A stretch of 37,612 nucleotides of DNA from a virus: IMG/VR virus record IMGVR_UViG_3300017773_000039, positions 1 to 37,612 of that record. The stretch is one strand, 5' to 3'. This document shows, one piece after another, positions 1,214-19,938 of this stretch (the first letter of the stretch is position 1; the number at the start of each line of letters is the position of its first letter). A program made the position numbers and the translations under genes. Below the pieces are notes generated by a model. The model saw nothing but the letters and a program-made list of their open reading frames with translations. It was not told the DNA's origin and searched no databases.

Positions 1214-1558
1214 ATGCGTAAGATTGAATCCCAAATGTGTTCCGCTATTCAGTCAAACAAGAACTGGAGTTCAGGCAATACAAGTGTTATCACTGATGAG
1301 AATAACATCTCTACAGTATATCTTCACGGAAACAAGATCGCTGAAATTGATGAAGATAGCATGACAATCTATGATGGAGGTTATCAATCAACTACAACTA
1401 AATCAAGACTCAATGCACTATGTGATTATTTCTGTGTAGAGGGTGAATGTGTTTATCAGAAGAACTTCAAATGGTATGTTGATAAACTCGTAGGAATGGC
1501 AGGACAAAGTAAAGTCTTCAACACCTACGAATTCACCAATGGTTTCATCTTCGCGTAA
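1214..1558 (+). CDS. Conserved phage hypothetical protein, 114 aa
   Basis: ATG at 1214; stop TAA at 1556-1558. The pattern MRKIESQMCSAI, then SGNTSVI, STVYLHGNKIAEI, an aspartate-rich turn, and TTKSRLNALCDYF is one I recognise from a widespread phage protein family (VYLHGN and TKSRLNA are its most constant parts). Its biochemical role is unknown. The middle is beta-rich and the SRLNA segment helical. It contains three Cys near residues 75-85 (CDYFCVEGEC), which could bind a metal, but this is only a guess. It has a C/A-rich leader with no Shine-Dalgarno sequence and is first in a three-gene unit. Confidence 0.75.
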   Translation: MRKIESQMCSAIQSNKNWSSGNTSVITDENNISTVYLHGNKIAEIDEDSMTIYDGGYQSTTTKSRLNALCDYFCVEGECVYQKNFKWYVDKLVGMAGQSKVFNTYEFTNGFIFA

Positions 1559-1905: not shown

Positions 1906-1913
1906 CATAAATA
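1906..1913 (+). promoter_or_regulatory. Late-promoter-like CATAAATA without an adjacent gene
   Basis: CATAAATA matches the T4-type late promoter pattern NATAAATA seen elsewhere in this window before virion genes. The next good start codon is more than 300 nt away, and the ATG at 1915 opens only a three-codon frame. If active, it would make an untranslated transcript running into the DnaA-box region. In such AT-rich DNA an 8-mer match can be chance. Confidence 0.25.
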
Positions 1914-1969
1914 CCATGTTTTTATGTTAAAATCAATTAAAAAGGTATTAATAAATGTATATGAGTGTT

Positions 1970-1986
1970 TTGTTAGTTTTTAACAA
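1970..1986. repeat. Inverted repeat next to DnaA-like boxes
   Basis: TTGTTA (1970-1975), a 5-nt GTTTT loop, and TAACAA (1981-1986) form a perfect 6-bp inverted repeat that ends 3 nt before the first DnaA-like box. It is too AT-rich to be a strong terminator. Confidence 0.4.
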
Positions 1987-1989
1987 CCC

Positions 1990-2052
1990 TGTGGATAAGT
2001 GCTTGTTATATGTGGTTAATACCTGTTAATCTGTGGAAAAGGTATCATTTAA
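1990..2052. repeat. Three 21-nt repeats each starting with a DnaA-box-like 9-mer
   Basis: TGTGGATAA (1990-1998), TGTGGTTAA (2011-2019) and TGTGGAAAA (2032-2040) start at exact 21-nt intervals and share one orientation. On the - strand they read TTATCCACA (the E. coli consensus DnaA box), TTAACCACA, and TTTTCCACA (the form reported for cyanobacterial origins, from memory). The remaining 12 nt of each unit are poorly conserved, so the pattern is spaced binding sites rather than a recent duplication. Twenty-one bp is two helical turns, placing all sites on one face of the DNA. Confidence 0.5.
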
Positions 2053-2159
2053 TCCCTTCTAAATGTTCATTCTTATAGTGATGTTAGCGAGCAGTCTATC
2101 AGAAACTCTCCCAAATGTCAAGACCCTATGTAACACTCCCACAGACCCACATAATTTTC

Positions 2160-2188
2160 TTGACATATACTTTGAAACATGGTATTAT
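2160..2188 (+). promoter_or_regulatory. Sigma-70 type promoter TTGACA-N17-TATTAT
   Basis: TTGACA at 2160-2165, a 17-nt spacer and TATTAT at 2183-2188. It overlaps the upstream end of the fourth conserved promoter block (2187-2223), so the gene at 2237 could be read from either or both. Confidence 0.55.
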
Positions 2189-3033: not shown

Positions 3034-3825
3034 ATGGCAAAAGGATTTACAGTAAAAGCAAAGACACCTGTGAAGGCGTCAGTAGAGAATACAGAGAAAG
3101 CAGACTGGGACTACACAGCAATTAAGGAGAGAATGCGTGGAAAAGCGATTGTCTTCTGTTTACCTGGGAGGGGATGTTCATATGCTTTTATGAAGAACTT
3201 TGTTCAATTGTGTTTTGACTTGGTTCAGAATGGAATGAGCATTCAGATTTCACAAGACTATAGTTCTATGGTGAACTTTGCTCGTTGTAAGTGTTTGGGT
3301 GCGAATGTATTGCGCGGACCTGATCAGTTGCCGTGGGATGGTAATTTGAAGTATGATTATCAGTTATGGATTGATAGTGATATTATCTTTACATCAGAGA
3401 AGTTCTGGCAATTGTGTGATATGGCAATTACTGAAGATGGTACAGAACGTCAGATTGTATCTGGATGGTACAGTACAGAGGATGGACGTACAACAAGTGT
3501 TGCTCATTGGTTAGATGAGGATGACTTCCGTAATAATGGTGGTGTCATGAATCATGAGATGGTTGATGGTATCAGTAAGCGTAAGAAACCATTTACTGTT
3601 GACTACACAGGATTTGGATGGGTAATGATTCAGAATGGAGTCTTTGAGAGTGCTGCGATGAAGTATCCATGGTTTGCTCCAAAGATGCAAGTATTTGAAT
3701 CAGGTGCCGTACAAGACATGTGTGGAGAGGATGTATCATTCTGTTTAGATGCGATCGAAGCAGGATATGAGATTTGGTGTGATCCACGTATTCGTGTAGG
3801 ACATGAGAAGATGCGAGTAATTTGA
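3034..3825 (+). CDS. GT-A fold glycosyltransferase-like protein, 263 aa
   Basis: Probable nucleotide-sugar-dependent glycosyltransferase. What is visible: a GRGCSYAFMKNF segment near residues 45-57, NFARCKCLGANVLRG near 81-95 (the substrate-binding region in this group), and the DSD metal-binding motif at 114-116 within YQLWIDSDIIF. Also present are the acidic GED at 231-233 in an acceptor-side segment and a late His (H257) that could be a metal ligand. All are typical of GT-A enzymes. Length fits a single catalytic domain; no membrane segment. It lies just upstream of the baseplate genes behind a perfect host-type promoter. Acceptor is unknown: virion proteins, modified DNA, or host surface sugars are all possible. 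The stop overlaps the next ATG (TGATG). Confidence 0.75.
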   Translation: MAKGFTVKAKTPVKASVENTEKADWDYTAIKERMRGKAIVFCLPGRGCSYAFMKNFVQLCFDLVQNGMSIQISQDYSSMVNFARCKCLGANVLRGPDQLPWDGNLKYDYQLWIDSDIIFTSEKFWQLCDMAITEDGTERQIVSGWYSTEDGRTTSVAHWLDEDDFRNNGGVMNHEMVDGISKRKKPFTVDYTGFGWVMIQNGVFESAAMKYPWFAPKMQVFESGAVQDMCGEDVSFCLDAIEAGYEIWCDPRIRVGHEKMRVI

Positions 3826-3929
3826 TGTCATTATTATTTGTTATAATCTTTATAGGATTACTGACAAGTGGTATGATGATGGTTGGTAACAAAATGGCAA
3901 TTACAAGGAGAATCGATGGCGAAAATTAA
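3825..3929 (+). CDS. 34-aa membrane peptide
   Basis: ATG at 3825 overlaps the glycosyltransferase stop by one base; TAA at 3927-3929. Product starts MSLLLFVIIFIGLLTSGMMM, a hydrophobic helix of about 20 residues, then a short basic tail (GNKMAITRRIDGEN). Reading corrected for codons: the first residues are Met-Ser-Leu-Leu-Phe-Val. It overlaps the next gene by 14 nt. No family recognised. Being a single transmembrane helix in a coupled overlap it could be a small membrane accessory, but it could also be a translational bridge between its neighbours. Confidence 0.4.
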   Translation: MSLLFVIIFIGLLTSGMMMVGNKMAITRRIDGEN

Positions 3930-4062
3930 GACAGGCAAATTCGGTCAGCAGATGATTGATAGTCAACCCAAGAATACCCGTCAGGGTCAGGGGAAGAATA
4001 CAAAATACTCTGCGACCAGTGGCAATAATGCCAAGAAGCGTTATCGTGGTCAAGGACGGTAG
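3916..4062 (+). CDS. Small basic hypothetical protein, 48 aa
   Basis: ATG at 3916 with a good Shine-Dalgarno AAGGAG (3905-3910); TAG at 4060-4062. Product starts MAKIKTGKFGQQMIDSQPKN and is rich in Lys, Arg, Gln, Asn and Gly, ending KKRYRGQGR. There is little hydrophobic content, so it is likely disordered or nucleic-acid binding. I believe similar short basic proteins occur near cyanophage structural genes, but no function is known to me. The stop overlaps the GTG start of the SET-domain gene (TAGTG), so the two are coupled. Confidence 0.6.
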   Translation: MAKIKTGKFGQQMIDSQPKNTRQGQGKNTKYSATSGNNAKKRYRGQGR

Positions 4063-4436
4063 TGTCTTATAACAAAACACTTTACACCTATCTCGCTCCC
4101 AGTACAGTCTGTGAGGGAGTGGGTGTTTTTTCTTTAGTATTCATACCAGTTGATACATGTATCTTTGTGCCCAAAAACCGCGAGAAAATCGCTTTTCATG
4201 ATGTAAGTAAAGAGATAGGGGTTGCGATGCGAAACCTAACATACTATGATAGTGAAGGGTTTTGGGTTGATGATGATTTAGATCGTATTGGTCCACAGTA
4301 TTATATCAATCATTCAATAAATCCAAATGTATCTTATAATAAGGACACGGGATGTCTTTATGCGATAAAAGATATTTCACCAAATAAAGAATTACTTGAT
4401 TACTATTTCCCAGAGGAACGAGAATGGCCTATTTAA
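4062..4436 (+). CDS. SET-domain protein, probable protein lysine methyltransferase, 124 aa
   Basis: Starts with GTG at 4062, overlapping the upstream stop. The SET fold signature is complete for a minimal domain. GVGVF at residues 19-23 corresponds to the GxG motif that contacts S-adenosylmethionine. NHSINPN at 83-89 is the NHSxxPN knot motif. ELLDYY at 110-115 corresponds to the EELxxDY motif with the catalytic Tyr. The usual GEE is changed to NKE. Length (124 aa) is about that of a bare SET core, with no pre-SET or post-SET cysteine clusters. SET proteins transfer methyl groups to protein lysines; the target here is unknown. It overlaps the next gene by 13 nt. Confidence 0.75.
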   Translation: MSYNKTLYTYLAPSTVCEGVGVFSLVFIPVDTCIFVPKNREKIAFHDVSKEIGVAMRNLTYYDSEGFWVDDDLDRIGPQYYINHSINPNVSYNKDTGCLYAIKDISPNKELLDYYFPEEREWPI

Positions 4437-5083
4437 ATCACAGTTTACCAGATTGGTCTTGTTATATTCGTAATGAGTTTCTTTATAATCATAAGAAAGG
4501 TCAGGGTGAGGTAACTCGTTGTGATGTTCATTCTGTAGCGAGTATAGAAAAACGGACGCCTCTGTTTGAAGCATTTCTGGAGAATGGTGTCAATTGGACA
4601 CGAAGACCTTTACATGCTTTTTGTTGGAAGTCTGATGCGGCAATAGAACCGTTAGAGGATATAATGTACTGGGACTGCTTTTCGCCTTATGTGGACGTAC
4701 AGAGACGCCATAGATTAGCAGGATTAAATGCGGAACTCATTCGTCCTGATGGGAAGAAAAGAGTAGGAACTTATATGTTCACATTAGATTGGTCATGGGA
4801 GAATAAAGGTATGCCTGATCTTAATTTTTCAGAGACACCAGAACATAAGTGTGCTCATTTGTTTAAAATGGAGAATGGTAATTATTATGCCTATCCAAAC
4901 AATCGTATTATCTGGTATGATGATGCCTGGACATTTGAAAGGATTAGTCAGAATCCTGGATATGAGATTGATCTAACTGTATATTCAGTTGAAAACAAAC
5001 GTAAGATTGAGACATCAGATCACTTCATGTATGAGGTTACACACCTAGATAATGAAATACCAGATCGGATTCCAGGATTATGA
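4424..5083 (+). CDS. Conserved-looking hypothetical protein, 219 aa
   Basis: ATG at 4424 inside the end of the SET gene, with an AGAGGA Shine-Dalgarno about 8 nt upstream. Product starts MAYLNHSLPDWSCYIRNEFL and is rich in Trp, Tyr and His. Recognisable blocks are PLHAFCWKSDAA, EDIMYWDCFSPYVDV, the Lys/Arg-rich RPDGKKRVGTYMFTLDW, and PNNRIIWYDDAWTF. I have the impression that such blocks are conserved in tailed phages near virion genes, but I cannot name a family. It is not gp53 or gp5 by sequence. It could be a virion-associated or assembly protein. The stop overlaps the next ATG (ATGA). Confidence 0.6.
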   Translation: MAYLNHSLPDWSCYIRNEFLYNHKKGQGEVTRCDVHSVASIEKRTPLFEAFLENGVNWTRRPLHAFCWKSDAAIEPLEDIMYWDCFSPYVDVQRRHRLAGLNAELIRPDGKKRVGTYMFTLDWSWENKGMPDLNFSETPEHKCAHLFKMENGNYYAYPNNRIIWYDDAWTFERISQNPGYEIDLTVYSVENKRKIETSDHFMYEVTHLDNEIPDRIPGL

Positions 5084-5241
5084 GTGAAGATAACCTCTTA
5101 AGAGAAATTGCTAATGACAATCAAACTCCAAGAAATAAGAGAAAGGTAAACCGAGATGGACTCTTTGAAACAAGCGATTGTTCTGATCCTGATCATATCT
5201 GTACTTGTGGTACTCAACAGGTAACACTTACTGAAGATTAG
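5080..5241 (+). CDS. Small hypothetical protein, 53 aa
   Basis: ATG at 5080 overlaps the upstream stop as ATGA; TAG at 5239-5241. Product starts MSEDNLLREIANDNQTPRNK, charged and helical, and ends with a Cys-bearing segment DCSDPDHICTCGTQQ. Three Cys and one His within 12 residues could hold a metal or iron, but the spacing is not a standard zinc ribbon. No family recognised. It closes the overlapping cassette that begins at the glycosyltransferase; a late promoter follows 5 nt later. Confidence 0.5.
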   Translation: MSEDNLLREIANDNQTPRNKRKVNRDGLFETSDCSDPDHICTCGTQQVTLTED

Positions 5242-5245
5242 TGTT

Positions 5246-5252
5246 CTAAATA
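5246..5252 (+). promoter_or_regulatory. T4-type late promoter CTAAATA before gp25
   Basis: CTAAATA at 5246-5252, ending 22 nt before the gp25 start codon, the same distance as the CTAAATA before gp13. This motif is read in T4-like phages by the phage late sigma factor gp55 with the sliding clamp. Confidence 0.6.
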
Positions 5253-5273
5253 AGGTAGAATTCTTGTATCAGT

Positions 5274-5678
5274 TTGTCAGTTCAGGAAAGGAGATCGAAA
5301 GGTTTCAAGGACATTAGTGCTACGTTCAAGATTAATCCTATCACTAGTGATTTGATTGGTCTTGTTAATTATAATGCGATAGCACGATCGGTTCGTAATT
5401 TAATTCTAACCGTGCCTGGTGAAAGACCTTTTAATCCAGTTCTTGGATCTGGCGTGAATGCCTTATTATTCAATCAACTTGATAATATCACATCAAGTAG
5501 CATTAAGACTGAAATTATTACAACACTTGAAAATTTTGAACCACGAATAGAATTAAATAATGTAATTGTTGCTCCAAACGCAGAACAACATAGATTTGAT
5601 GTTACAATTCAATATTATATTGTTGGTATTCCACTGGATGTACAAGAAATTCAGATAGCATTAGTCCCGACTAGGTAA
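5274..5678 (+). CDS. 25: Baseplate wedge protein gp25
   Basis: gp25-type baseplate wedge subunit (GPW/gp25 family), part of the inner wedge core next to gp6. Matching features: FKDISATFKINP at the N-terminus, the NAIARSVRNLILTVPGERPF block (residues about 34-53) with NPVLGSGVNALLF after it, and the C-terminal NFEPRIELNNVIV segment. Length 134 aa compares with 132 in T4. The start must be TTG at 5274: the frame has no ATG or GTG near the N-terminus and a stop 18 nt upstream. There is no good Shine-Dalgarno before the TTG. Next gene starts 1 nt after its stop. Confidence 0.9.
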   Translation: MSVQERRSKGFKDISATFKINPITSDLIGLVNYNAIARSVRNLILTVPGERPFNPVLGSGVNALLFNQLDNITSSSIKTEIITTLENFEPRIELNNVIVAPNAEQHRFDVTIQYYIVGIPLDVQEIQIALVPTR

Positions 5679-5679
5679 G

Positions 5680-7797
5680 ATGCCACTAGTAAACTTCAGC
5701 AACCTAGACTTCGACCAGATTAAAACGTCCATCAAGGACTATATTCGTGCGAACTCTAATTTCACCGATTATGATTTTGAGGGATCTAACCTCTCCACAA
5801 TCATTGATACGTTAGCATATAACACGTATCTCACTTCGTATAACACCAACATGGTGACGAATGAGATATTCATTGATAGTGCGACCTTGAGAGAGAACGT
5901 TGTATCTCTAGCAAGAAATATTGGATACCTTCCGCGTTCAAGAAGAGCAGCGAGAGTATCCGCATCATTTACGGTATCTAATCTTACTGACATTCCTTCT
6001 GTTACTTTGAAGAAAGGATTAGTCGCTGTTACCTCTCAACGTTTTGGTAACTCTGATTTTGTATTTTCAATTCCAGAAGATATTACTGTACCGGTAAATT
6101 CAAAAGGTGTAGCACAATTCTTTGATATTGTTCTGTATGAAGGTTCATACCTAGAGCAGTCATTTACTGTCAATTCAAGAAATCCAGACCAGAAATTTAT
6201 ACTACCCAATACTGGTGTAGATACGACTACTATTAATGTAACTGTTAATGAGTCTAGTACATCAACTATTAAGAGCACATACAAACTTTATAATAGTTTG
6301 ATTGATGTCGGACCAGAAACTCGCGTTTACTTTATTCAAGAGATTGATGGTGAGCGATATGAACTCCTATTCGGTGATGGCATCATTGCGAAAAAGTTAG
6401 AAGAACCTAATGAAGTTAATATTGGTTATATTGTATCAAGTGGTTCAAATGGAAATAGCATATCAAACATAACCTTTGCTGGTTCTCTTGTCACTAATAA
6501 TGGAACACCAGTTACACAAGGATTATCATTCATTACTATAGACGGAGCATCTTTTGGTGGATCCCCGATTGAATCAATTGACTCAATTAAAAAATATGGT
6601 CCACAAGTTTATGCTTCGCAAAACAGAGCAGTTACTGCTGCTGACTATGAGGCACTAATTCCGAGAATATATCCTGAAGCAGAATCTGTTTCAGCATATG
6701 GTGGTGAGGAGTTGAACCCACCACAGTATGGAAAGGTATTCATTAGCATCAAACCAGTTAATGGTGTTTTTCTTTCTAATTGTCTCAAGGATAATCTTTC
6801 TTCTGAACTTGCGAAGTATAAAGTAGCAGGTATTAAGATTGATGTTATTGATCTATCCTATTTGTTCATTGAACCATCGTCTAACGTTTATTATAACAGC
6901 AACCTGACTCCAACTACCCTAGGCGGAAATGATGGCACTGGAATGGTTTCTAGTCCTGTTAGAGACGATGCTCTAAAGGCAATTGGAAATTATGCTAACT
7001 CAACTGAATTAAATAAATTTGGTGGACGCTTTAAGTATAGTAAGTATCAGTGTGTCATTGATAAGTCTAATTCTGCGATTACATCAAACATCACTAATAT
7101 TCAGATTAGAAGAGATTTGGAACCAAAACTAAATCAGTTTGCTGAATATGAACTTTGCTATGGCAATAGATTCCGTCTCAAGAATCATTGCCGTACTATC
7201 GCAGAAGGTGCAATGGTTGGTTTCAATATCAGATCCTCTGGATTTAAAGTCAGTGGTAGTGCTGATGTTGTATACCTTGGAGATCTACCTAATGCGAATA
7301 TGGAGACTGGAGAATTATTCCTCTTTAAGTTGAGTTCTCCCAAAAATCCTGTCATCGTTAAAAGAAACGTAGGGGTTATAAATTATAAGATAGGTGAGAT
7401 TATGTTGAATCCAATAAAGATTATATCTACACAAATTACTAAAGGAACCACACCTGTCATTGAAATCTCTGCGATTCCATATTCAAATGATGTTATTGGT
7501 CTTCAAGATCTTTACTTACAATTAGACCTTAATAATACTGTGGTAAATACTGTTATAGATCAGATTGATTCAAAAACAGATGTATCTGGAACCAATTATA
7601 TTGTGTCTCCGAGTTTTGACGGTAATCAATTAGTTCGTGGAGTACCAGTCTCTATTGATGGAGCAAATGGAGCATCATCTGCTACGACTCCAAGCACAAT
7701 AGCACAAGTAACGACACCTGGTACTACTTCTCAAGTGACAGGTATTGTTCAACAATCAAGTACATCATACAGTCCAGGATCCACCTCCGGTTATTAA
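5680..7797 (+). CDS. 6: Baseplate wedge protein gp6
   Basis: gp6 forms the ring of the T4 baseplate wedge and holds gp25, gp7 and gp53. The N-terminus (LVNFSNLDFDQIKTSIKDYI) and the following ANSNFTDYDFEGSNLSTIID block are characteristic. A baseplate-J-like segment lies near residues 307-360 (YASQNRAVTAADYEALIPRI, then QYGKVFISIKP). Length is 705 aa against 660 in T4. The last 40-odd residues are a low-complexity Ser/Thr-rich tail (ending SYSPGSTSGY) that is probably flexible. ATG at 5680 is 1 nt after the gp25 stop; gp7 starts 6 nt after its own stop, so the three are coexpressed from the late promoter at 5246. Confidence 0.93.
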   Translation: MPLVNFSNLDFDQIKTSIKDYIRANSNFTDYDFEGSNLSTIIDTLAYNTYLTSYNTNMVTNEIFIDSATLRENVVSLARNIGYLPRSRRAARVSASFTVSNLTDIPSVTLKKGLVAVTSQRFGNSDFVFSIPEDITVPVNSKGVAQFFDIVLYEGSYLEQSFTVNSRNPDQKFILPNTGVDTTTINVTVNESSTSTIKSTYKLYNSLIDVGPETRVYFIQEIDGERYELLFGDGIIAKKLEEPNEVNIGYIVSSGSNGNSISNITFAGSLVTNNGTPVTQGLSFITIDGASFGGSPIESIDSIKKYGPQVYASQNRAVTAADYEALIPRIYPEAESVSAYGGEELNPPQYGKVFISIKPVNGVFLSNCLKDNLSSELAKYKVAGIKIDVIDLSYLFIEPSSNVYYNSNLTPTTLGGNDGTGMVSSPVRDDALKAIGNYANSTELNKFGGRFKYSKYQCVIDKSNSAITSNITNIQIRRDLEPKLNQFAEYELCYGNRFRLKNHCRTIAEGAMVGFNIRSSGFKVSGSADVVYLGDLPNANMETGELFLFKLSSPKNPVIVKRNVGVINYKIGEIMLNPIKIISTQITKGTTPVIEISAIPYSNDVIGLQDLYLQLDLNNTVVNTVIDQIDSKTDVSGTNYIVSPSFDGNQLVRGVPVSIDGANGASSATTPSTIAQVTTPGTTSQVTGIVQQSSTSYSPGSTSGY

Positions 7798-7803
7798 TAT
7801 CAA

Positions 7804-10800
7804 ATGGCACTAGATAGAGTTAAAATTCAGGATATCCTCGCATCTCAGGTTCCTGAGTATGTGAAGGATGATTTTCCTCTGCTTGTAACTTTCCTAGAAG
7901 AGTATTATAAATCCCAAGAGATACAAGGTGGTACATTTGATCTGATTCAGAATCTGGATCAATATGTCAAATTAGATGATTTAGTAAATCTGAAGAACAG
8001 CACAATTCTTCAGGAAAGTATTGATTTTGCTTCCACAACTATCAAGACTGATGTTGATAGTAATTTTACATATGGATTCCCCGAAGAGAACGGGTTGATT
8101 AAAATTGAAGATGAGGTCATCTCTTATGGGTACAAGACCAGTACCACGTTTGAGGACTGTAAGAGGGGGTTCAGTGGCGTTACAGCACTGATTGGACCGG
8201 TCCCTGACCAATTGGTGTTTGATAGCACTATTTCGACAATCCATACGAAAGGTGCGAAAATTGAGAATCTCAGTATTCTCTTCCTGCAGGAATTCTTTAA
8301 AAAACTCAAAAAACAAATTGTTCCTGGTTTCCAAAATAGACAACTTACGGATGGTTTGGATCAAAGAAACTTTATTCTTGGTTCTAATACTTTTTATAAT
8401 TCAAAAGGAACAGACGATTCGGTTGAGATTCTATTCAGATTATTATTTGGTAAAGAAGCAGAAATTATCCTTCCAAGTAAGTTCTTGATCAGACCTTCGG
8501 ATGCTGATTATAGAATTTCAAAAGATTTTATTGTTGAATCATATGCGGGAGATCCACTAAAACTTAGTGGTAAGACTCTGTATCAGCCAATTATTAATTT
8601 TGGAAATAAAGGTGGAATTGGTCAAGAAGGACTTGGACGTGGAACTGAAACGACAGGAACTCTATCTGGTATTAACTCAATCAATGGAACACCAGAATTA
8701 GATAAGGTCGTTAGAGGATCTGTTTGTGGTGTCGAGAGACTTAACTATGACAAGGGACAATACTATCAAATCAGCGTTGATTATGGATATGATAGAGACA
8801 CTAATGTAGAAGGTAGTATTTACGGTTCTTTCCAACCTAACCCCAAAACCCAAATTGTAAATTCTGTTGCTATTGGTGCCACTATCATTGATGTTGATTC
8901 AACTGTTGGTTTTCCAGATTCTGGAGATTTAAGCGTTATTGATAGAAATAATGATGAATTAAAGATTAGTTATACCTCTAGAAACATCAATCAGTTTATT
9001 GGCATATCATCTTCCAATATTACATCTGAAATTCCTGATGAAAATATTGTAAGATTCTTCAATAATGCTTTCGCATTTGTAGGTATTGGAACTGAAGATC
9101 AAATCAAAGTAAGAATGACTTCTACTTTGAAAGATCTTAAAATTGGGGATAAAACTAAATCTCTCAACGTTGATGATACAATCACTGTTAAATCTCTTGG
9201 TCTGCCGGATACTAATAAAAAGTCAACAAATTGGTTTTATAATTTAAAATCACAGTATGATGTTAATGACATAGAAGCAGTTGATACTTCAGAATCGATC
9301 TATAAGGTTACACTTAAAATCGGTCACTTCTTTAAGATTGGTTACAATATCCGACTTGAAAGTAGCAACGGTGCAACTAGAACAGGAAATATCACCAAAG
9401 TTAACGGAAAAACTAGTTTTACTATTAAATTAAGTTCAATTATTCCAACATCCGAACTTGATCTTTTCTATACCGTAACAAATCTTATTTTAAAAGGCAA
9501 TTCGTCTTTTTATCCTCAACTTAATAATAATTACGCCAACGTTCAAGCAGTTTATAATAATTTTAATGATGATCTTATGGTAGCATCTAATTCGCTACCA
9601 AGATATGTCAACTCTCAAATTAATCCATATAGTAAAACTGTAAAGTTTTCTGGCAAAGCAGATTCTAATGGTATAATTCAAGTCACCACCTCAATTGATC
9701 ATGGATTTTATACTGGAGACTCTGTATTCTACAAAGGTAGCGTAGTAAAGAATGTAACCAACACTCCTGATGGATTTCAGATTGTTACAGAAACAGAAAA
9801 CAAGTTTACCAATATGGAAGAACTTGTATATTTTGTGAAAAGAGTAAGTGGGACAAGAGTTCAACTCGCAAAGAGTAAATCAGACCTGTTCAGTGGAAAG
9901 TATATTATACCATCTGGTTCTGTCCAAGATAATCAGTTAATTTATTTTGATTATTATGGCAAAGAGGTTGGTGGTCAATATTTGTATAGAAATTTTGTAA
10001 AACCGGATAATCAGTCTGGTATATTTGATACCGCACCAGGATATACCGGTATGTTAGTGAATGGTGTTGAAATTCTTAATTTCAAATCACCAAAATCTGT
10101 ATATTATGGAAAAATTAATCAAATTAATATTTCAAATGAGGGATCTGGATATGATGTGCTTAATCCTCCGGTTTTAAATATCGTTGATCAAATTGGATCT
10201 GGTGCGACAGGAACTTTTTCTGTTAATGGTTCTTTAGAAAGAGTTGATATTGTTGATGTAGGATATGATTATATTGATGCTCCAACTGTAAGAATCACTG
10301 GGGGTTTCCCAACGAAAGATGCTGTTGCTGAAGTTAATGTTTCATCGATTAGTCATAATGTAGAATTTAACGCTGGTGCGGGAAGTACTAATCTAAAACT
10401 TACTCCAAATAATACAATTGGGTTCTCAACCTTTCATAAATTTAGAGATAACGAAAAGATCATTTATGATACTAGCAGTACGGCTCCTGTAGGTGGTATT
10501 TCTACTAATTCTTACTATTATGTGAATGTAGTAGATGGATATACTGTACAACTTCACAATAGTGAGTCAGATGCTATATCTGGTATCAATACAGTTTTAC
10601 TTACCTCATTCAGTGATAATACACATTCGCTAAATTCATTTGAAAGAAAAAGAACCGTTACAAACGTTGTTGTTACAAATCCAGGAGAAGGTTATAAGAA
10701 CAATAGAAAGAATATTAATTCTGCTGGAATTATTACGGCATTAAATTGCTTCTCTATTGATGAACATGGGTATTCTACTAAAGATATCATTAGATATACA

Positions 10801-13800
10801 CCTGGCAATATACCTATTAGTGGGTTGTCCTCCCTTACTGATTACATTGTCAAATCTATCAATAGAGATACAATAAAATTATATGAAGTTGGTTCTGGTG
10901 GCACTAGTAAGAACTATTACTTCAATAACAACATTGCAGTAAGTATTGCCTCTACAGGAAATGGTTCATTTAATTATGAACCAATCAATATGTCTATTGA
11001 AGGCACAGTTGGTGTTAATAGTCTAACTAATCAAGATTTCACCTGTAGAGTAACACCAGTATTCAGAGGTTCTATCACATCTGCCGATATTATCAGCAAA
11101 GGTATTGGATATGGATCATCCACAATTGTAAATTTCAATAGACAACCAAAAATTAATATTGAGAGTGGAACCGGTGCTCAATTGTTTCCAGTTGTATCAA
11201 ATGGTAAAATCATTGACATAATCATTCAAAATCCTGGAACTGATTATAATTCACCACCAGATATTCAAATTGTTGGTGTTGGAAGTTTCGCTAAATTGAC
11301 CCCAGTCATTAATGATGGTTCTTTTGTATCAGTAAATATTATTAGTGGAGGTATAGGATATAATCAGGGTAATATTTCATTGCGTGTAGTACCTTCTGGT
11401 AGAGGTGCTACTGTAGAAGCAAATATTAATGAATGGAATATTGATACATTTGCTAACGACTTTAATAATATTAATGATGATGATGGATTCATTGATGATA
11501 ATTTGGATTCTTCTTCCTTACAATATTCTCACGTTTATGCTTCTCGTAAATTGAGAGAAGCAATCAGCCCCATTGATGCAAATGGAGATACAATTTATGG
11601 TGCTCAAGACTTAATTAAAGAAAATGGAATTGAAGTATCTTCACTTGAGCACTCTCCCATTATTGGATGGGCATATGATGGAAATCCAATTTATGGACCT
11701 TTTGGTTATGCTAATGCCAGAGGCGGCAATGTAAAGCAAATGGTTTCTGGTTATGAACTTGTAACTAGTCAAGCACAAAGACCCTCCGTATCAAATTTTA
11801 GAGAAGGATTCTTTGTAGAAGATTATGTCTATAGGGGAACGGGAGATCTTGACCAGCATAATGGTAGAATTTGTGTAACACCAGACTACCCAGATGGTGT
11901 GTATGCTTATTTTGCCACATTTGAGCAGACGGTTGATACTAGTGGTCCGTTTGATAAGTTTAAGAGACCAGCGTTCCCATATTTGGTTGGTCCATCATTT
12001 AAGTCTAAACCAAACAACTTTAATTTTAAAAAGTCATCAAATCAATTAGATTACAGTATTGGAAACTATGATTGGTTAAGAAATACTAATTTCTACAATC
12101 TTGATGGCAATCACGGCGACTACAAATATATTTTTAATCCCAATAGGGTTAATGCTCCCACGATGAAAATCGTATCTACCACATCTGGTAGTATAGACAA
12201 TATTGGCATTGTAACAGGTGGAACTAATTATAAGGTTTCCGATAACATCTATCTTGATGGATCCGCTAGAGCATCCGTATCGAAAGTCCAGGGTAAATTA
12301 GTCAATAGAGTCAGTATTGCCACTAGCTCTGTATCTAATATTGAATTCATACCATTCCAGTCTAGACAACAATTTATTGGAATGTCTTCGGCACCACATG
12401 GATTCAAGAATGATGATGTTCTTACACTTAACAGTACATCCGAATATTTTGATCAATTTGATGGTAAGTATAGAGTTGGTGTAACTACTAATACCTTTGT
12501 TTTAACAGATAATATAAGCGACTCTACTGTCACTGGAATTAATACTTTTATTCCAGTATCCGGTCCTACACAATATCCAACTCTTGTCATAAATGACATT
12601 CTTGAGATTGGAAGTGAAAGAGTTAAGGTTCTTAATATTGAACCGAATCGTTTAAGAGTTGCCAGAAAGCAGGATGGAACGGTATCGTCGGCACATACTG
12701 CTACATCTATTCTTACTTCTGATCCTAGAAGATTTACTGCCAACATTGGAGCTGCTAGCACAACAAAAGTTTTATTCTTCAATAAAGAACTGTATTTTAC
12801 ACCATCTGAAACAGTTGGTATCGGATCTACAACCGGTACAGGCATTGGTGTTACCCTCACAATTTCTAATCCAGGAGCAGGGGTTACACAAGTATTTGTT
12901 GAACCAAGATCTCTCTTCTTACCCAATCATGGATTGAAGTTAAATGACAGAATTAGATATAATCTTAATGGTGGTTCATCTATTACTTATTGGGATGGTA
13001 TTAGTGGAACACCAGTCAGTAGTCTGACAGGAATTTCAACACTCTTTGCTATTCCTCTGACTACCAATACAGTTGGAATTAGTTCAAATATTTGTGGACT
13101 TAATAGTGGTGGTAAGTTTGTCGGTGTAAACACAGATGCCGGTCTCCTTTACCTTGTTGGAGTCGGAACTGGTGATAATCATAGTTTTAAAACTGATTTA
13201 GTAAATGTCGTAACATCTACTGCATCTAGAAATGAAGTAACAGTATCTACAGCAGGAACTCACGGTCTATCATATCTTGATAGTGTAGTATTTGATTTAA
13301 AACCAACCAATGTGATTAGTGTAAAAGTAAAATACGACGACCACAATAGAAGGATGGTATTTGATCCTGTTAATTTTGTTGCTGGGGACGTAAATCTATC
13401 AGATAATACAATATCATTTACTAAAAATCCATTTAAAACAGGAGATAGAGTAATTTATACCTCTACCTCCCCAGTTGGTGGTCTTGTAAGTACGGGATTA
13501 TATTTTGTTTATGTATATTCTACTACAGAAATTAAATTTGTTCACAATAAGTCTGACTTAAACCTTTTAGAACCACCTTTTATCAATCTAACATCTACAT
13601 CAACTGGAACTCTTTCAAGAGTCAATCCACTGATTCAAGTTAATAGAAAAAACACACTGAAATTTGATTTATCTGACCCATCACTATCATTTATATCAAG
13701 TGGTGTTAGATATCCTGCCTTTGAGATGCAGATGTATAGAGATATTCAATTTAACGATAGATTCCTAACATCTGGAGAGACTGATACTTTTGAAGTATCT

Positions 13801-16800
13801 TCTTCCGGCCAAGCAGGTATCACGACCACTGCTAACCTTACAATTAGCGTGACTGATGATCTTCCATCAGTTCTATGGTATAAATTTGATACGATTAATG
13901 ATTCTATTATTCCCTCGGTAAAAAATGAAATTGTGATTGATGGGGATGTCAAGGCATACAATCAAATTGATGTTGTCAAGACTCCCATAGACGGTTCTTA
14001 TAGACTTTCATCAATAGGTTCAACCACATTTACTTACATTGTTCCTAATATCCCTGATATTGTATCATATGGGTCAACAAATGCTGAGTCTTCATATACA
14101 ACTCCATCCAAGAATGCCTTCGGTGCTATTAACTCTGTAAAAATTGTTAATAGTGGATTTGGATACAAATCTACACCTTCAATATCCTCCATCAGAAGCG
14201 GACTTGGCACAGGTGGTCTAGTTGAAGCATCAAGTGATAATATTGGAAAACTTCTAGAATCTAGATTTATTTCAAAAAACATCGGATTTGATTATGCATC
14301 AGACCCAACTTTAAATGCTATTGCTGGTATACCAGAGGTCGTCAAATTAGAACCTCTGTCATCATTTAATTCGATCGGAATTACTTCCTCGGGTATCAAC
14401 TATCTAACATCTCCAGATATCATCGTTTTTGACGGCATAACCAATAAGAGATTGGATGTTGAACTTGAATATAATCTTGGTGATATGGAAGTAAGTATTC
14501 TTAAGAATACAACTAATGCTTACTATGTTCCACCTAAATTTGTCACAGTTAATAATTCAAATGGATATTCAATATCATCTATATCTTACAACGATTCAAA
14601 TAAAGTTGTAAGACTCTTCCTGAGTCATCAATTCTCGTCAAACGCTGAATATCCCTTTGAAGTAAGCAAGAACATTCTAATTGAGAATATTAGTGTAGGT
14701 GTAGGGTCAACCGGATCTGGATATAATTCCAAAGACTATAATTATACATTATTTGCTGTATCTGGCGTCAATACTAATGCTGGCGGTTCTGGTGCTTGGG
14801 TTGAATATGATATGACTGAGCAGTTAGGAGACAATGGATTCCCAGGAAATTATAGCTCTGATTCCATTGGCAAAGTAATCCCAGAAACTCATTTCCCAAT
14901 CTTCAATCCCGTTCTCATCAAAAATCTATTTTTGAAGGGTGAAAGAATCGCTGGAGACCGATTTAAAGGTAGAGTTCAAGATTATAATCCAAATAATGAG
15001 ATTTTAAAGGCAACTGTTCAGGGTGTTATTTCTCCTGGTGATTTTATTAGAGGATTTACCTCTGGTTCTGTTGGTTCTGTTGAAACTTCAACCTTATTTG
15101 ACGCTACTCTTCAAATTGGTGCGGGAGCAACAATATATGAGGGATGGAAGAAGTCTACAGGATTCTTGAATGACAATCTTCAAAGAATCGCTGATAATGA
15201 GTATTATCAAGATCTTTCCTATTCCATCTCTTCTGAAATTGATCTTGATACTTGGAATGATCCTGTAAGTTCAATGACTCATACTGCTGGATTTAAGAAA
15301 TTTGCTGATCTGCAGGTTTATAGTCAAGCACCTCAAAATATATCTGCCATTGTATCCACCCAAGATAGTAATATTGAAAATATTGTTGATATCAGTAGTA
15401 TCGTAGACCTAAACTGCTATCAAGATTTTGATGTAGCGTCTGAAGGGGGCACCTTCATTGATGACATCTATATTTCAAATGAAATCGTACTTCAAAATAG
15501 AATTCTGACAGATTTCCTTGAATCTATCGGAAACAGGGTTTTGGAAATTGATGACATAAGTGGTCAGTTTAACAGTAACTCTAGAACTACACCTTTTGAA
15601 GTTATTGCTCTATATGGTTTAGATTATAACTACAACAAAATTTTCACTCATGTAAAAGACGCAACATTCACCGATGAAAGGCAATTTGCTATTGTCAGTG
15701 TGCTTCAAGATAATGGAATTGGATATATTTCTCAATATGCATCAATCGAGACTTATCCTTATCTTGGATATTTTGATTATGGAGTCACTTCAACCGGTTG
15801 GAATTTACTATTCTATCCAGTCAAATTTGAGAGAAATATTTATAGTACCTCAACATCGGCCATCAATATTCTTTCTGGAATAACAACAACAGGGGTGGAT
15901 GCTCATGGGGATGTAGCATATACGGTCGGTGGATATCAACCAATTGTTGCTAACACGAAAACTTCAATTGTATCTTTCGGCACAACATACAGAGCAGCAA
16001 AAATTATTGCTTTGTTTGATGCCGCTAATGATCGTAAATATGGTGCTGAACTCAATATTATTCATGACGGCACCGAATGCTATCAGATGGAGACTAATTC
16101 TATTGGTGAAGTGCAGGGTCTAACTGGTGTCGGATTTGGTACATTCGATTCTAGAATTTCTGGTAGTAATATAATTGTTGAATTTACTCCAAATTCAAGT
16201 GTCAGTGTCGCAATGACATGCACAACTGCGTCTATCTTAATTTCTGATACTAATACAACTGCTGGAAATCAACTTCTTGATGTTTCTAGAGTTGGATCTT
16301 CTTACAGTAGCATCTCTGCCTCTGGTTCTCCAACTCAAAACATTGTTGCCTCTTACATACCACCATCTGAATCAGGATACTATATCTTTACAGTAGAAGA
16401 CAATACAAACAACAGATATGAAATGTTTGAGTTTGCTGCTCTCAACTCTTCATCTAATGAGTGTTATGTTGAATTTGCAAATCTTGAAACTAGTGGTCAT
16501 ATTGGAACTGTTGGAGCAACAACGAATGTTGACGGAGGTATTAATGTAGTATATACACCAGAAGCAGGAATTGATGTTGAAGTAAGGTCTTACTTTACTG
16601 AGATGATGATTTATGATGGTGTTAATACGAGAGCAGGAGTCATTGATTTAGATAATGTTCAAATTACCACTGATCATGAACAATATGAAGGAACTCTTCT
16701 TGACGTTAAAACAGCATTTGAACTCAAGCACGATGGTCTGAATATTTTCAGAAGAGTATTTGATGGTACAAATACAACGATTGTCAATACCAGCACCGAC

Positions 16801-19800
16801 CAGATCACGCTTCCTAATCATTTCTTTGTAAGTGGTGAAGAAGTTGAATATGGTCATCCAGGAACTGGCACAACTATGGCAATTGGAATTGCCAACACTA
16901 CATTCCCAGGGATTGGTGCTACGACCAAACTTCCTCAAAATCTATTCGTTATTAAAGATAATGAGTCTAAGATTAGACTTGCTGTGTCTGCTGAACATGC
17001 ACTATCTGAATCACCAACAGCGATTGACATTACCTCAGTGGGTATTGGTCTATCACATACAATCAATTCCAAAAAACAAAACTCTAAGGCATTGCTGGCA
17101 ATTGATAACATTATTCAATCCCCAATTGCTAAAACTGATATTACTACCGAACTTGCTAGTAATGTTGTTTTTGATACTATATTTAATACTACTGGTCTTT
17201 CTTCCTTTATAGCAGGTGATATTATCAAGATTAATGATGAATATATGAAGATAGATGGTATTGGTATTGGAAATACTGTTGCCGTTAGGGTTGACAGGGG
17301 ACAATTAGGTTCTGTGCTTGGAGTTCATACATCGGGAGATAATATTATCAAGTTTACTGGTAATTATAATATTGAAGATAATATTATTAATTTCGTTCAG
17401 GCACCTTTTGGTAATAATCCTTTGAGCACGACAACAGGAAATCCAAATGAAAGAGACTGGACTGGAATTACAACTAGTTCAATGTTCCAAGGAAGAACAT
17501 TTATGAAGCGTGGTGCCATTGGTTCTACAGAGGAAACATACCACACTAATCATATTTTTGATGACATTACTGATAGATTTACTGGTGTTGGTAAAACTTA
17601 TGCTCTTACAAGTGGAGGAAATAATGTATCAGGTATTGATACAAGCACTGTTATCTTGATAAATGGCATCTATCAACTAAATCAAGGTATTCAGGCATTC
17701 CCTGGTGATTATAACATTGAAGAAAGTGTTGGCGTCAGTTCTATAGTATTTACAGGTGAACGTGTAAATCAGGGATATGATCCTAATAGGTCTACTCTTC
17801 CTGTTGGTGGTAGATTTATTTCAGTTGGTTCTACTGGTGGATTTGGATATCAACCACTTGTATCAGCAGGTGGAACTGCCGTTATCTCTGCTGCTGGTAC
17901 TGTTCAGTCTATTAGCATTGGAAACAGTGGTTCTGGATACCGAGCAGGCATCAATACGGTCGTAAATGTTGGTGTTCAGACTTACAGTGGTGTTCTTCCT
18001 AATCTGCTCAATATCGGCACTGCTACCATTCAAGGTGGTAATATTGTAAGCGTTGCCGTCACTAACCCTGGTGTAGGTTACACATTCACCAATCCACCAG
18101 TTGTCGTGTTTGATGATCCTCTGTCATATGTCAATCTCCCTTTGATTTACAGTGCTTCTAGTCCTTCACAGAGTGGTGCTGAAGCGACTGTAGATATTGT
18201 GGTTGGTCAAGAATCTGGTATAATTGATTTTGAGCTCAATGATCAGGGTTATGGATATCGCGAAGGAGATATTCTTACTGTTAATATTGGTGGTTTGACT
18301 GGCATTCCAACTAATACATCACTTACCTATGAAGAGTTCCAACTTACAATTGATAGGACTTATAGCGATCAGTTTAATGGATGGTCAATTGGAGAATTCC
18401 AAGTATTTGATAGACTTGACTTAAAGTTTGATGGAATTCAAAGATCGTTTAAACTGCTATTGAACGAAAATCCAGTTTCTATCAAAGCAGCTGCTGGTTC
18501 AAATATTGAAATTGAACAAACATTGCTTGTATTCATCAATGATATCCTCCAAAAACCAAATGAAGGTTATATATTTGAAGGTGGTAGTTTAATTACATTT
18601 AGTGAACCACCAAAAGGACCAGTTGGTTCTGCTCAAATAGGTGACACCTCTAAAATTTTGTTCTACAGAGGAAATGGGGATATTGATGTTGTATTTACCG
18701 ATATTGAGGAAACTGTAAAGGTTGGCGATACTCTTAAACTTAATAATGATACATCAAAAGGTCAAGGTATAACACTTGATCAGAATCCAAGAACAGTGGT
18801 TGGTATCAATACACTTGATACTGTAGAAACTAATTCATATGTTTCTCCAGGCGTCACTACAGATAAAACATTACTGAGACCACTTACATGGTGTAAACAG
18901 ACTGTTGATAAGTTTATCAATGGTGACGAGATTGGTAAAGATAGACTCGCTTATGAACCAAATATATTCCCTGCTTCTTTTATTATTCAACCTGTGGGTC
19001 TTGGAACAACAACAGTTTATGTTGATACAGTGAGACCACTCTTTGATGGTCAAAATGAACAAAATCTTAGAGGATTCCAGGATAAGATTACTCTAAATTC
19101 TCAAGATACTCTTGTTGGAGCGACTGTAACTGCCATTGTTGAAAATGACGGTAGAATTCTATCATTTAATATTACTGAATCGGGGACTGGTTATACTGGA
19201 TTATCTACTGTGTTGATTACAGTATCAAATCCAGATGGTGGAATTTCATCTAGAGCATCTGGAATTGGAACCATGACATCTGGAGGAATTCTATCCTCCG
19301 CATCTATTACTAATCCTGGTTCTGGATACACATATTCTAATCCCCCTGTGTGCTTGATACAATCTCCTGTAATTACAGAAGAGGATATGGCAGTAAGGTC
19401 TTACCTTGGTGATTATGGTCAGATTGTTGGTGTAGGAACAACCTCTAGTGGTTCTCAAAATCAACTTACTTTTGACTTGTTTATCACTGTAAATTCTGAT
19501 CTTCGCAATACAGATCTGGTGGGAACAGCAATTACAATCAGTGGTATTTCCACTAATGATTATCTTACAATCTCCAATACGAATATTTCTATTGGTGATA
19601 CCTTTGCTTCAGAGGATACATCTGGAAGTACAATTGGCATCGGAACCACATCTCTTGATATGATATATCAAGTTACTTCTTCTGAGATTAGAGATGAAAA
19701 TGTAATTGGTATAGGTATAACTTCAATTCGTAGAATTGCCGTTAATATTGATACCGCTGTTGGATTCGCATTTACAAATACATCAAACATGGGTAATTTT

Positions 19801-19938
19801 AGTTGGGGTAAAATAAATGTTTCAAGAGCACTTAACCCAAGTGAATTTAACTTCTATGGTAACGGTGGTCTCATTGGTATCTCGACTTCGGCATTGGTGA
19901 CAAGATTCAATCCTCTGAAATTTAATAATTATGTTTAA
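7804..19938 (+). CDS. 7: Giant baseplate wedge protein gp7, 4044 aa
   Basis: Called gp7 from position (6-7-8 order) and its N-terminus, MALDRVKIQDILASQVPEYV with FPLLVTFLEEYYKSQE, typical of cyanophage gp7. T4 gp7 has 1032 residues, so this is about four times longer. The extra length is beta-rich repeats: at least a dozen GxGYxxxP-type units (for example near residues 780, 960, 1100, 1180, 2115, 3420, 3835); several HG-GD-V-Y/GGL/YYV units (about 633, 875, 988, 1709, 1875); and EE/RG/GT/H units (about 98, 1600, 3140). A YHYH-type domain lies at about 1280-1385 (GWAYDGNPIYGPFGY, HNGRICVTPDYPDGVYAYF). Near residue 3576 FINDILQKP is a motif shared with other cyanophage structural proteins. The reading frame is open for 12.1 kb without a stop. 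It probably forms both the wedge connector and a large peripheral array on the baseplate. Confidence 0.85.
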   Translation: MALDRVKIQDILASQVPEYVKDDFPLLVTFLEEYYKSQEIQGGTFDLIQNLDQYVKLDDLVNLKNSTILQESIDFASTTIKTDVDSNFTYGFPEENGLIKIEDEVISYGYKTSTTFEDCKRGFSGVTALIGPVPDQLVFDSTISTIHTKGAKIENLSILFLQEFFKKLKKQIVPGFQNRQLTDGLDQRNFILGSNTFYNSKGTDDSVEILFRLLFGKEAEIILPSKFLIRPSDADYRISKDFIVESYAGDPLKLSGKTLYQPIINFGNKGGIGQEGLGRGTETTGTLSGINSINGTPELDKVVRGSVCGVERLNYDKGQYYQISVDYGYDRDTNVEGSIYGSFQPNPKTQIVNSVAIGATIIDVDSTVGFPDSGDLSVIDRNNDELKISYTSRNINQFIGISSSNITSEIPDENIVRFFNNAFAFVGIGTEDQIKVRMTSTLKDLKIGDKTKSLNVDDTITVKSLGLPDTNKKSTNWFYNLKSQYDVNDIEAVDTSESIYKVTLKIGHFFKIGYNIRLESSNGATRTGNITKVNGKTSFTIKLSSIIPTSELDLFYTVTNLILKGNSSFYPQLNNNYANVQAVYNNFNDDLMVASNSLPRYVNSQINPYSKTVKFSGKADSNGIIQVTTSIDHGFYTGDSVFYKGSVVKNVTNTPDGFQIVTETENKFTNMEELVYFVKRVSGTRVQLAKSKSDLFSGKYIIPSGSVQDNQLIYFDYYGKEVGGQYLYRNFVKPDNQSGIFDTAPGYTGMLVNGVEILNFKSPKSVYYGKINQINISNEGSGYDVLNPPVLNIVDQIGSGATGTFSVNGSLERVDIVDVGYDYIDAPTVRITGGFPTKDAVAEVNVSSISHNVEFNAGAGSTNLKLTPNNTIGFSTFHKFRDNEKIIYDTSSTAPVGGISTNSYYYVNVVDGYTVQLHNSESDAISGINTVLLTSFSDNTHSLNSFERKRTVTNVVVTNPGEGYKNNRKNINSAGIITALNCFSIDEHGYSTKDIIRYTPGNIPISGLSSLTDYIVKSINRDTIKLYEVGSGGTSKNYYFNNNIAVSIASTGNGSFNYEPINMSIEGTVGVNSLTNQDFTCRVTPVFRGSITSADIISKGIGYGSSTIVNFNRQPKINIESGTGAQLFPVVSNGKIIDIIIQNPGTDYNSPPDIQIVGVGSFAKLTPVINDGSFVSVNIISGGIGYNQGNISLRVVPSGRGATVEANINEWNIDTFANDFNNINDDDGFIDDNLDSSSLQYSHVYASRKLREAISPIDANGDTIYGAQDLIKENGIEVSSLEHSPIIGWAYDGNPIYGPFGYANARGGNVKQMVSGYELVTSQAQRPSVSNFREGFFVEDYVYRGTGDLDQHNGRICVTPDYPDGVYAYFATFEQTVDTSGPFDKFKRPAFPYLVGPSFKSKPNNFNFKKSSNQLDYSIGNYDWLRNTNFYNLDGNHGDYKYIFNPNRVNAPTMKIVSTTSGSIDNIGIVTGGTNYKVSDNIYLDGSARASVSKVQGKLVNRVSIATSSVSNIEFIPFQSRQQFIGMSSAPHGFKNDDVLTLNSTSEYFDQFDGKYRVGVTTNTFVLTDNISDSTVTGINTFIPVSGPTQYPTLVINDILEIGSERVKVLNIEPNRLRVARKQDGTVSSAHTATSILTSDPRRFTANIGAASTTKVLFFNKELYFTPSETVGIGSTTGTGIGVTLTISNPGAGVTQVFVEPRSLFLPNHGLKLNDRIRYNLNGGSSITYWDGISGTPVSSLTGISTLFAIPLTTNTVGISSNICGLNSGGKFVGVNTDAGLLYLVGVGTGDNHSFKTDLVNVVTSTASRNEVTVSTAGTHGLSYLDSVVFDLKPTNVISVKVKYDDHNRRMVFDPVNFVAGDVNLSDNTISFTKNPFKTGDRVIYTSTSPVGGLVSTGLYFVYVYSTTEIKFVHNKSDLNLLEPPFINLTSTSTGTLSRVNPLIQVNRKNTLKFDLSDPSLSFISSGVRYPAFEMQMYRDIQFNDRFLTSGETDTFEVSSSGQAGITTTANLTISVTDDLPSVLWYKFDTINDSIIPSVKNEIVIDGDVKAYNQIDVVKTPIDGSYRLSSIGSTTFTYIVPNIPDIVSYGSTNAESSYTTPSKNAFGAINSVKIVNSGFGYKSTPSISSIRSGLGTGGLVEASSDNIGKLLESRFISKNIGFDYASDPTLNAIAGIPEVVKLEPLSSFNSIGITSSGINYLTSPDIIVFDGITNKRLDVELEYNLGDMEVSILKNTTNAYYVPPKFVTVNNSNGYSISSISYNDSNKVVRLFLSHQFSSNAEYPFEVSKNILIENISVGVGSTGSGYNSKDYNYTLFAVSGVNTNAGGSGAWVEYDMTEQLGDNGFPGNYSSDSIGKVIPETHFPIFNPVLIKNLFLKGERIAGDRFKGRVQDYNPNNEILKATVQGVISPGDFIRGFTSGSVGSVETSTLFDATLQIGAGATIYEGWKKSTGFLNDNLQRIADNEYYQDLSYSISSEIDLDTWNDPVSSMTHTAGFKKFADLQVYSQAPQNISAIVSTQDSNIENIVDISSIVDLNCYQDFDVASEGGTFIDDIYISNEIVLQNRILTDFLESIGNRVLEIDDISGQFNSNSRTTPFEVIALYGLDYNYNKIFTHVKDATFTDERQFAIVSVLQDNGIGYISQYASIETYPYLGYFDYGVTSTGWNLLFYPVKFERNIYSTSTSAINILSGITTTGVDAHGDVAYTVGGYQPIVANTKTSIVSFGTTYRAAKIIALFDAANDRKYGAELNIIHDGTECYQMETNSIGEVQGLTGVGFGTFDSRISGSNIIVEFTPNSSVSVAMTCTTASILISDTNTTAGNQLLDVSRVGSSYSSISASGSPTQNIVASYIPPSESGYYIFTVEDNTNNRYEMFEFAALNSSSNECYVEFANLETSGHIGTVGATTNVDGGINVVYTPEAGIDVEVRSYFTEMMIYDGVNTRAGVIDLDNVQITTDHEQYEGTLLDVKTAFELKHDGLNIFRRVFDGTNTTIVNTSTDQITLPNHFFVSGEEVEYGHPGTGTTMAIGIANTTFPGIGATTKLPQNLFVIKDNESKIRLAVSAEHALSESPTAIDITSVGIGLSHTINSKKQNSKALLAIDNIIQSPIAKTDITTELASNVVFDTIFNTTGLSSFIAGDIIKINDEYMKIDGIGIGNTVAVRVDRGQLGSVLGVHTSGDNIIKFTGNYNIEDNIINFVQAPFGNNPLSTTTGNPNERDWTGITTSSMFQGRTFMKRGAIGSTEETYHTNHIFDDITDRFTGVGKTYALTSGGNNVSGIDTSTVILINGIYQLNQGIQAFPGDYNIEESVGVSSIVFTGERVNQGYDPNRSTLPVGGRFISVGSTGGFGYQPLVSAGGTAVISAAGTVQSISIGNSGSGYRAGINTVVNVGVQTYSGVLPNLLNIGTATIQGGNIVSVAVTNPGVGYTFTNPPVVVFDDPLSYVNLPLIYSASSPSQSGAEATVDIVVGQESGIIDFELNDQGYGYREGDILTVNIGGLTGIPTNTSLTYEEFQLTIDRTYSDQFNGWSIGEFQVFDRLDLKFDGIQRSFKLLLNENPVSIKAAAGSNIEIEQTLLVFINDILQKPNEGYIFEGGSLITFSEPPKGPVGSAQIGDTSKILFYRGNGDIDVVFTDIEETVKVGDTLKLNNDTSKGQGITLDQNPRTVVGINTLDTVETNSYVSPGVTTDKTLLRPLTWCKQTVDKFINGDEIGKDRLAYEPNIFPASFIIQPVGLGTTTVYVDTVRPLFDGQNEQNLRGFQDKITLNSQDTLVGATVTAIVENDGRILSFNITESGTGYTGLSTVLITVSNPDGGISSRASGIGTMTSGGILSSASITNPGSGYTYSNPPVCLIQSPVITEEDMAVRSYLGDYGQIVGVGTTSSGSQNQLTFDLFITVNSDLRNTDLVGTAITISGISTNDYLTISNTNISIGDTFASEDTSGSTIGIGTTSLDMIYQVTSSEIRDENVIGIGITSIRRIAVNIDTAVGFAFTNTSNMGNFSWGKINVSRALNPSEFNFYGNGGLIGISTSALVTRFNPLKFNNYV

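Follow-up and report, generated by a model that had tools for sequence, protein, structure and literature searches.

A conserved non-coding element with phased DnaA-box-like 9-mers, a candidate replication origin of T4-like cyanophages

Organization of the locus

The genes in the window, by which we mean the whole 37.6-kb stretch of viral DNA that was analyzed, match those of T4-like cyanophages; they include the baseplate wedge genes gp25, gp6 and gp8, a glycosyltransferase-like gene and small hypothetical genes, and the nearest named relatives of the window are Synechococcus phages such as S-B43 and S-SCSM1. Very long open reading frames (ORFs) lie among the baseplate genes, at 7804–19938 (4044 aa) and 21583–29190 (2535 aa), and in S-B43 gp6 is followed by a “baseplate wedge initiator” that is likewise very long. 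Two smaller features of the window are a run of nine C residues at 2697–2705, just before the ORF at 2793, and a promoter-like cassette with the core TTAGTAACCTCTAAATGTCCCCTATAGTATAAG, which is repeated at 366–417, 626–677, 1146–1197 and 2172–2223, ahead of several small ORFs.

Three DnaA-box-like 9-mers are arranged on the plus strand in steps of exactly 21 nt (Table 1), and a preliminary description of this DNA had given their sequences, positions, single orientation and spacing correctly. The two neighboring features that it had reported are likewise present: an AT-rich stretch, with 17% GC at 1900–1959, and an inverted repeat with arms at 1906–1911 and 1921–1926. The left arm of the repeat is part of CATAAATA (1906–1913), which matches the cyanophage late-promoter motif NATAAATA (PMC2984593). 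Single box-like sites are not rare in the window, where six lone TGTGGNNAA sites are found vs. 7.2 expected. The composite triple pattern occurs only once in the window, even when three mismatches are allowed, and in none of 100 shuffled sequences; it is the clustering and phasing of the 9-mers that is unusual, not the single sites. The consensus TTWTNCACA is matched by boxes 1 and 3 only, the middle 9-mer, TGTGGTTAA (TTAACCACA), being off consensus.

The A+T-rich stretch falls within the least stable 0.1% of 60-bp windows across the 37.6 kb, and the corresponding segment is also among the least stable DNA in four phage genomes. On the other side of the array, a predicted promoter, TTGACA-17-TAGACT (2121–2093), points left, via the box array and into the A+T-rich segment, in a direction that opposes nearly all phage genes. 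The layout in the window is an unstable A+T-rich segment, followed by a helically phased array and an opposing sigma70-type promoter.

Table 1. Coordinates of the element and of its flanking markers in the window
Feature	Position	Strand	Remarks
phrog_554 protein	1214..1558	+	Left synteny marker
Inverted repeat CATAAA/TTTATG	1906..1926	none	Probably outside the core element
Conserved A+T-rich segment TTAAAAAGGTATTAATAAATGTATATGAGTGTTTTGT	1937..1973	+	Candidate DNA unwinding element; profile match, about 100 loci; low duplex stability
TTTTTAACA	1977..1985	-	Possible remnant of an inverted box; TTYTCCACA is flush at the A+T-rich end in many relatives
DnaA-box-like 9-mer 1, TGTGGATAA (complement TTATCCACA)	1990..1998	+	16 nt from the A+T-rich segment
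DnaA-box-like 9-mer 2, TGTGGTTAA	2011..2019	+	Off consensus
DnaA-box-like 9-mer 3, TGTGGAAAA (complement TTTTCCACA)	2032..2040	+	Complement is the cyanobacterial DnaA-box consensus (PMC4674748)
Conserved block GTGATGTTAGCGAGCAGTCTATCA	2078..2101	-	Spans the -10 hexamer and the predicted start of the leftward transcript; 54 IMG/VR loci
-10 hexamer TAGACT	2098-2093	-	Leftward promoter
-35 hexamer TTGACA	2116..2121	-	Leftward sigma70-type promoter; 17-nt spacer, extended -10
Divergent sigma70-like promoter TTGACA-17-TATTAT	2160..2188	+	Rightward; probably serves small downstream ORFs
Glycosyltransferase-like gene, gp25 and gp6	3034..7797	+	Right synteny markers, at 3034-3825, 5274-5678 and 5680-7797

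Conservation and variation of the element

A blastn search with the intergenic stretch matched S-SCSM1, P-TIM68, Bellamy and one single-cell marine virus, and two parts were conserved in these matches, the A+T-rich segment and the block GTGATSTTAGCGAGCAGTCTATCA. Weak blastn matches to Acinetobacter phage Acj9 and to T7 gene 4 were set aside as chance. Using a pattern for the promoter-side block alone, which is blind to the boxes, we retrieved 54 IMG/VR stretches; TTGACA is located 17 nt upstream of the -10 hexamer in nearly every locus, although it was not part of the search pattern. Strong TTGACA promoters on the strand of the leftward promoter number just three to six per genome in Bellamy, P-TIM68 and S-SCSM1.

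Across roughly 100 related loci, a phrog_554 homologue is present on one side of the element, and homologues of the window ORF at 2793, the glycosyltransferase-like gene, gp25 and gp6 on the other; to the right of the element, a glycosyltransferase gene is found in 78 loci and gp25 in 64. As judged by sequence comparison, the non-coding element that holds the 9-mers is conserved and syntenic in T4-like cyanophages (Kyanoviridae), with gp25–gp6 downstream of it. Ten named viruses carry the element: S-SCSM1, S-BM3, S-PM2 (at about 19,230–19,350), S-RIM12, P-SSM3, P-TIM68, Bellamy, Sf-FS3, S-B43 and AG-345-O18. Boxes adjoin the A+T-rich segment in five of the ten, and in S-PM2 and S-RIM12 they are placed on the opposite side of that segment. 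Inspection by eye did not find the element in S-CAM7 or ACG-2014f.

Box counts were based on 77 dereplicated elements selected blind to the boxes. At least one box is present in 40 of these elements and at least two in 36; strict TGTGGWWAA-type sites number 80, vs. 0.8 expected, and boxes are 142 times as dense in the element as elsewhere in the same loci. All 78 forward sites read TGTGGANAA, and 53 of them are TGTGGAAAA (TTTTCCACA, the cyanobacterial form). The comparative evidence indicates that the boxes are under selection in the element. Forward boxes are 20–22 nt apart in 26 of 40 pairs. Over IMG/VR, the triple pattern was found in 108 stretches at 21 nt vs. 2 at 16 nt, 12 at 23 nt and none at 26 nt (these being counts of stretches, some of them near-identical), and on this comparison the 21-nt spacing itself is favored. 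Since cyanophage marker genes are present on 27 of the 108 stretches, the preference extends beyond T4-like cyanophages. The preliminary description had named loss of the 9-mers or of their spacing in close relatives as a refuting result; the 21-nt spacing is kept in the two closest distinct relatives (L068 and L075). Six contigs (L002, L047, L061, L064, L065 and L085) carry gp25, gp6 and glycosyltransferase genes together with 21-nt-spaced DnaA boxes; by profile, none of them has a marine-type A+T-rich segment beside the boxes.

From the end of the A+T-rich segment to the first forward box there are 14–17 nt in 24 of 38 elements, whereas the distance between boxes and promoter differs among the elements by well over 100 nt. 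This pattern fits a role of the array in opening the A+T-rich segment better than a role in promoter control. In relatives, an inverted box is often flush with the A+T-rich end.

The DnaA boxes are not conserved throughout the group (40 of 77 elements only). The remaining 37 elements have no DnaA box, and boxes are absent from the elements of the cultured phages Bellamy, S-B43, Sf-FS3 and P-SSM3, so DnaA cannot be essential to the element group-wide. Most box-less elements (e.g. L121, L126 and L120) have tandem 11-bp repeats at the same place, with an autocorrelation z of 12 at lag 11, a fitted motif of gAGtgTCTTtG and adjacent sites exactly 11 bp apart in 65 of 85 cases; other box-less elements contain palindromes such as GAGAATGTTCTC or AGGATAGTATCC. 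S-SCSM1 combines boxes with 11-bp-like repeats. Some of the 11-bp repeats hold TGTGG, and we considered whether they are weak DnaA boxes; this was set aside because the fitted motif is unlike a box, and the repeats were handled as a separate module. They may still be DnaA sites.

Likeness to known origins and the replication proteins

At the T4 origins oriF and oriG, a promoter with an A+T-rich element downstream of it, within 100–200 bp, is all that is needed; the RNA made there enters an R-loop and serves as the primer of the leading strand (PMC3016281). The cyanophage promoter similarly reads into an A+T-rich candidate unwinding element; the two T4 origins differ in that the promoter is a MotA-dependent middle promoter and is not separated from the unwinding element by a box array. 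T4 oriE has an early promoter, and evenly spaced repeats have been reported for it (PMC3016281); in the T4 record it is located upstream of gene 6, in minus-strand direction, with a primer complementary to the gene 5 transcript. The cyanophage element is also located upstream of gene 6, its predicted primer RNA is directed against structural genes, and it contains evenly spaced short repeats (boxes at 20–22 nt or 11-bp repeats), the sequence of which is unlike that of the T4 repeats. The T4 repeats, in contrast, are not DnaA boxes, and the 24-nt repeats lie inside the gene 5 coding sequence, whereas the cyanophage element is intergenic. The T4 24-nt repeats by oriE (L374, 5403–5570) may reflect protein repeats and not iterons.

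As in bacterial oriC (E. coli and cyanobacterial), an A+T-rich segment adjoins DnaA boxes, and TTTTCCACA is the form found in cyanobacteria (PMC4674748). Several consensus DnaA boxes lie beside the candidate A+T-rich unwinding element; in the window two are consensus and one is off consensus. Unlike oriC, the cyanophage element has only two to three boxes, no dnaA or dnaN neighbor and an opposing promoter that reads through it, and a gp41-type helicase of the phage itself would be expected to act there. Relative to the A+T-rich segment, the first box in the window probably has the orientation of R1 in E. coli. Iteron plasmid origins have helically phased repeats beside an A+T-rich segment, some with DnaA boxes, and this arrangement of repeats is shared by the cyanophage element; the difference is that iterons and DnaA boxes mostly stand in for one another in the cyanophage elements, and that no Rep protein has been identified.

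The host strain Synechococcus WH7803 encodes one DnaA, and no perfect DnaA box was found in its dnaN-proximal region; tandem TTNTCCACA pairs are present in only 16 of 81 host-family genomes, a result that is neutral as to recognition by DnaA. A search of 12 cyanophage genomes for the C-terminal, box-binding domain of DnaA gave nothing above the cut-off. The Syn9 genome encodes gp59. GC skew makes no turn at the element in four phage genomes, and is uninformative because nearly all of their genes run in one direction.

Proposed origin and alternative explanations

Based on these observations, we propose, with a probability that we put at roughly 0.55, that T4-like cyanophages start replication at this element, an RNA-primed origin of T4 type with an exchangeable initiator module that in the window consists of DnaA boxes. 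The T4-type, RNA-primed reading is suggested by the place, polarity and parts that the element shares with T4 origins. Host RNA polymerase would start early in infection at the leftward promoter and transcribe through the array into the A+T-rich segment, where, as at T4 oriF, the RNA would stay hybridized as an R-loop and prime the first leading strand. Host DnaA bound to the boxes would help to open the A+T-rich segment or to hold it open, and the opened segment would let the phage gp41/gp59 system load. In the box-less members of the family, another protein could act in the same role on the 11-bp repeats. Points that speak against the proposal are the lack of boxes in half of the family, the position of the boxes across the A+T-rich segment in S-PM2 and S-RIM12, the dnaN-proximal region of WH7803 with no perfect box, and the two genomes in which the element was not found; GC skew lends it no support. 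A more far-reaching version, to which we give somewhat less than even odds, is that the element is a shared primary origin built of a fixed RNA-priming promoter, an unwinding element and an exchangeable initiator-binding cassette; lineages would switch between host DnaA, on boxes phased at 21 bp, and another initiator, on 11-bp repeats, so that part of the group would depend on host DnaA at initiation.

The preliminary description had suggested a candidate phage origin that may recruit or titrate host DnaA. This idea is supported in large part, a candidate origin that recruits host DnaA being the best-supported reading in view of the box enrichment, the synteny, the cyanobacterial consensus, the anchoring to the A+T-rich segment and the correspondence to T4 oriE. 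The idea has to be amended in that the boxes are optional, and the description had overlooked both the leftward promoter, which is the source of the likeness to T4 origins, and the alternative 11-bp repeats.

A conserved strong promoter that is aimed at the array, with a divergent promoter alongside and the boxes downstream of the transcript start, could also belong to a transcriptional hub, at which a non-coding or antisense RNA is made, DnaA or the protein on the 11-bp repeats serves as a downstream roadblock or switch, and no replication starts. We find this rather unlikely: the boxes are tied in position to the A+T-rich segment, not to the promoter, and no leftward-strand gene is found nearby in the window. 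The predicted RNA is also little structured and has no Rfam match, and on the same two grounds, fold scores and Rfam, a structured non-coding RNA was rejected. Binding of the 9-mers by a phage protein in place of DnaA, in which case the element may still be an origin, seems a shade less credible. Half of the family has other repeats at the same place, which means that some other binding protein must exist, and the lack of perfect boxes in the dnaN-proximal region of WH7803 also speaks for it; against it, the forward sites share one form without exception, mostly the known cyanobacterial DnaA box, and no candidate phage protein is known.

It is quite improbable that the boxes merely soak up host DnaA as phage copies rise, halting host initiation in the manner of E. 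coli datA while phage replication starts elsewhere. High-quality boxes at a fixed site would suit such titration, and phage DNA reaches many copies per cell, but there are just two to three boxes per genome, and titration would leave unexplained why the boxes are tied to the A+T-rich segment, why a promoter is present and why 11-bp repeats can take the place of boxes. The probability that the 9-mers are chance occurrences in an A+T-rich intergenic region is close to nil: although the number of lone TGTGGNNAA sites in the window is in line with expectation, chance clustering is refuted by the enrichment in homologous elements (142-fold; 80 sites vs. 0.8 expected) together with the preference for 21 nt over the control spacings.

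Our literature search covered searchable papers, with most subscription papers outside it, and found no experiment on this element; to judge from their titles and abstracts, the papers that name both cyanophage and DnaA box deal with cyanobacterial genomes. In a review of cyanomyoviruses, the sole mention of an origin is a predicted single theta origin in Syn9 (PMC2984593). For the abundant T4-like cyanophages, the element provides a precise candidate site of replication start, of about 200 bp, in the cultured phages S-PM2, S-BM3, S-SCSM1, S-RIM12 and Bellamy. It also leads to a sharp prediction, namely that host DnaA is used by some T4-like cyanophages and not by others. If the proposal is true, phage replication would be tied to host replication control at an origin that is directly testable, and the element would illustrate how initiator modules can be exchanged at a conserved origin.
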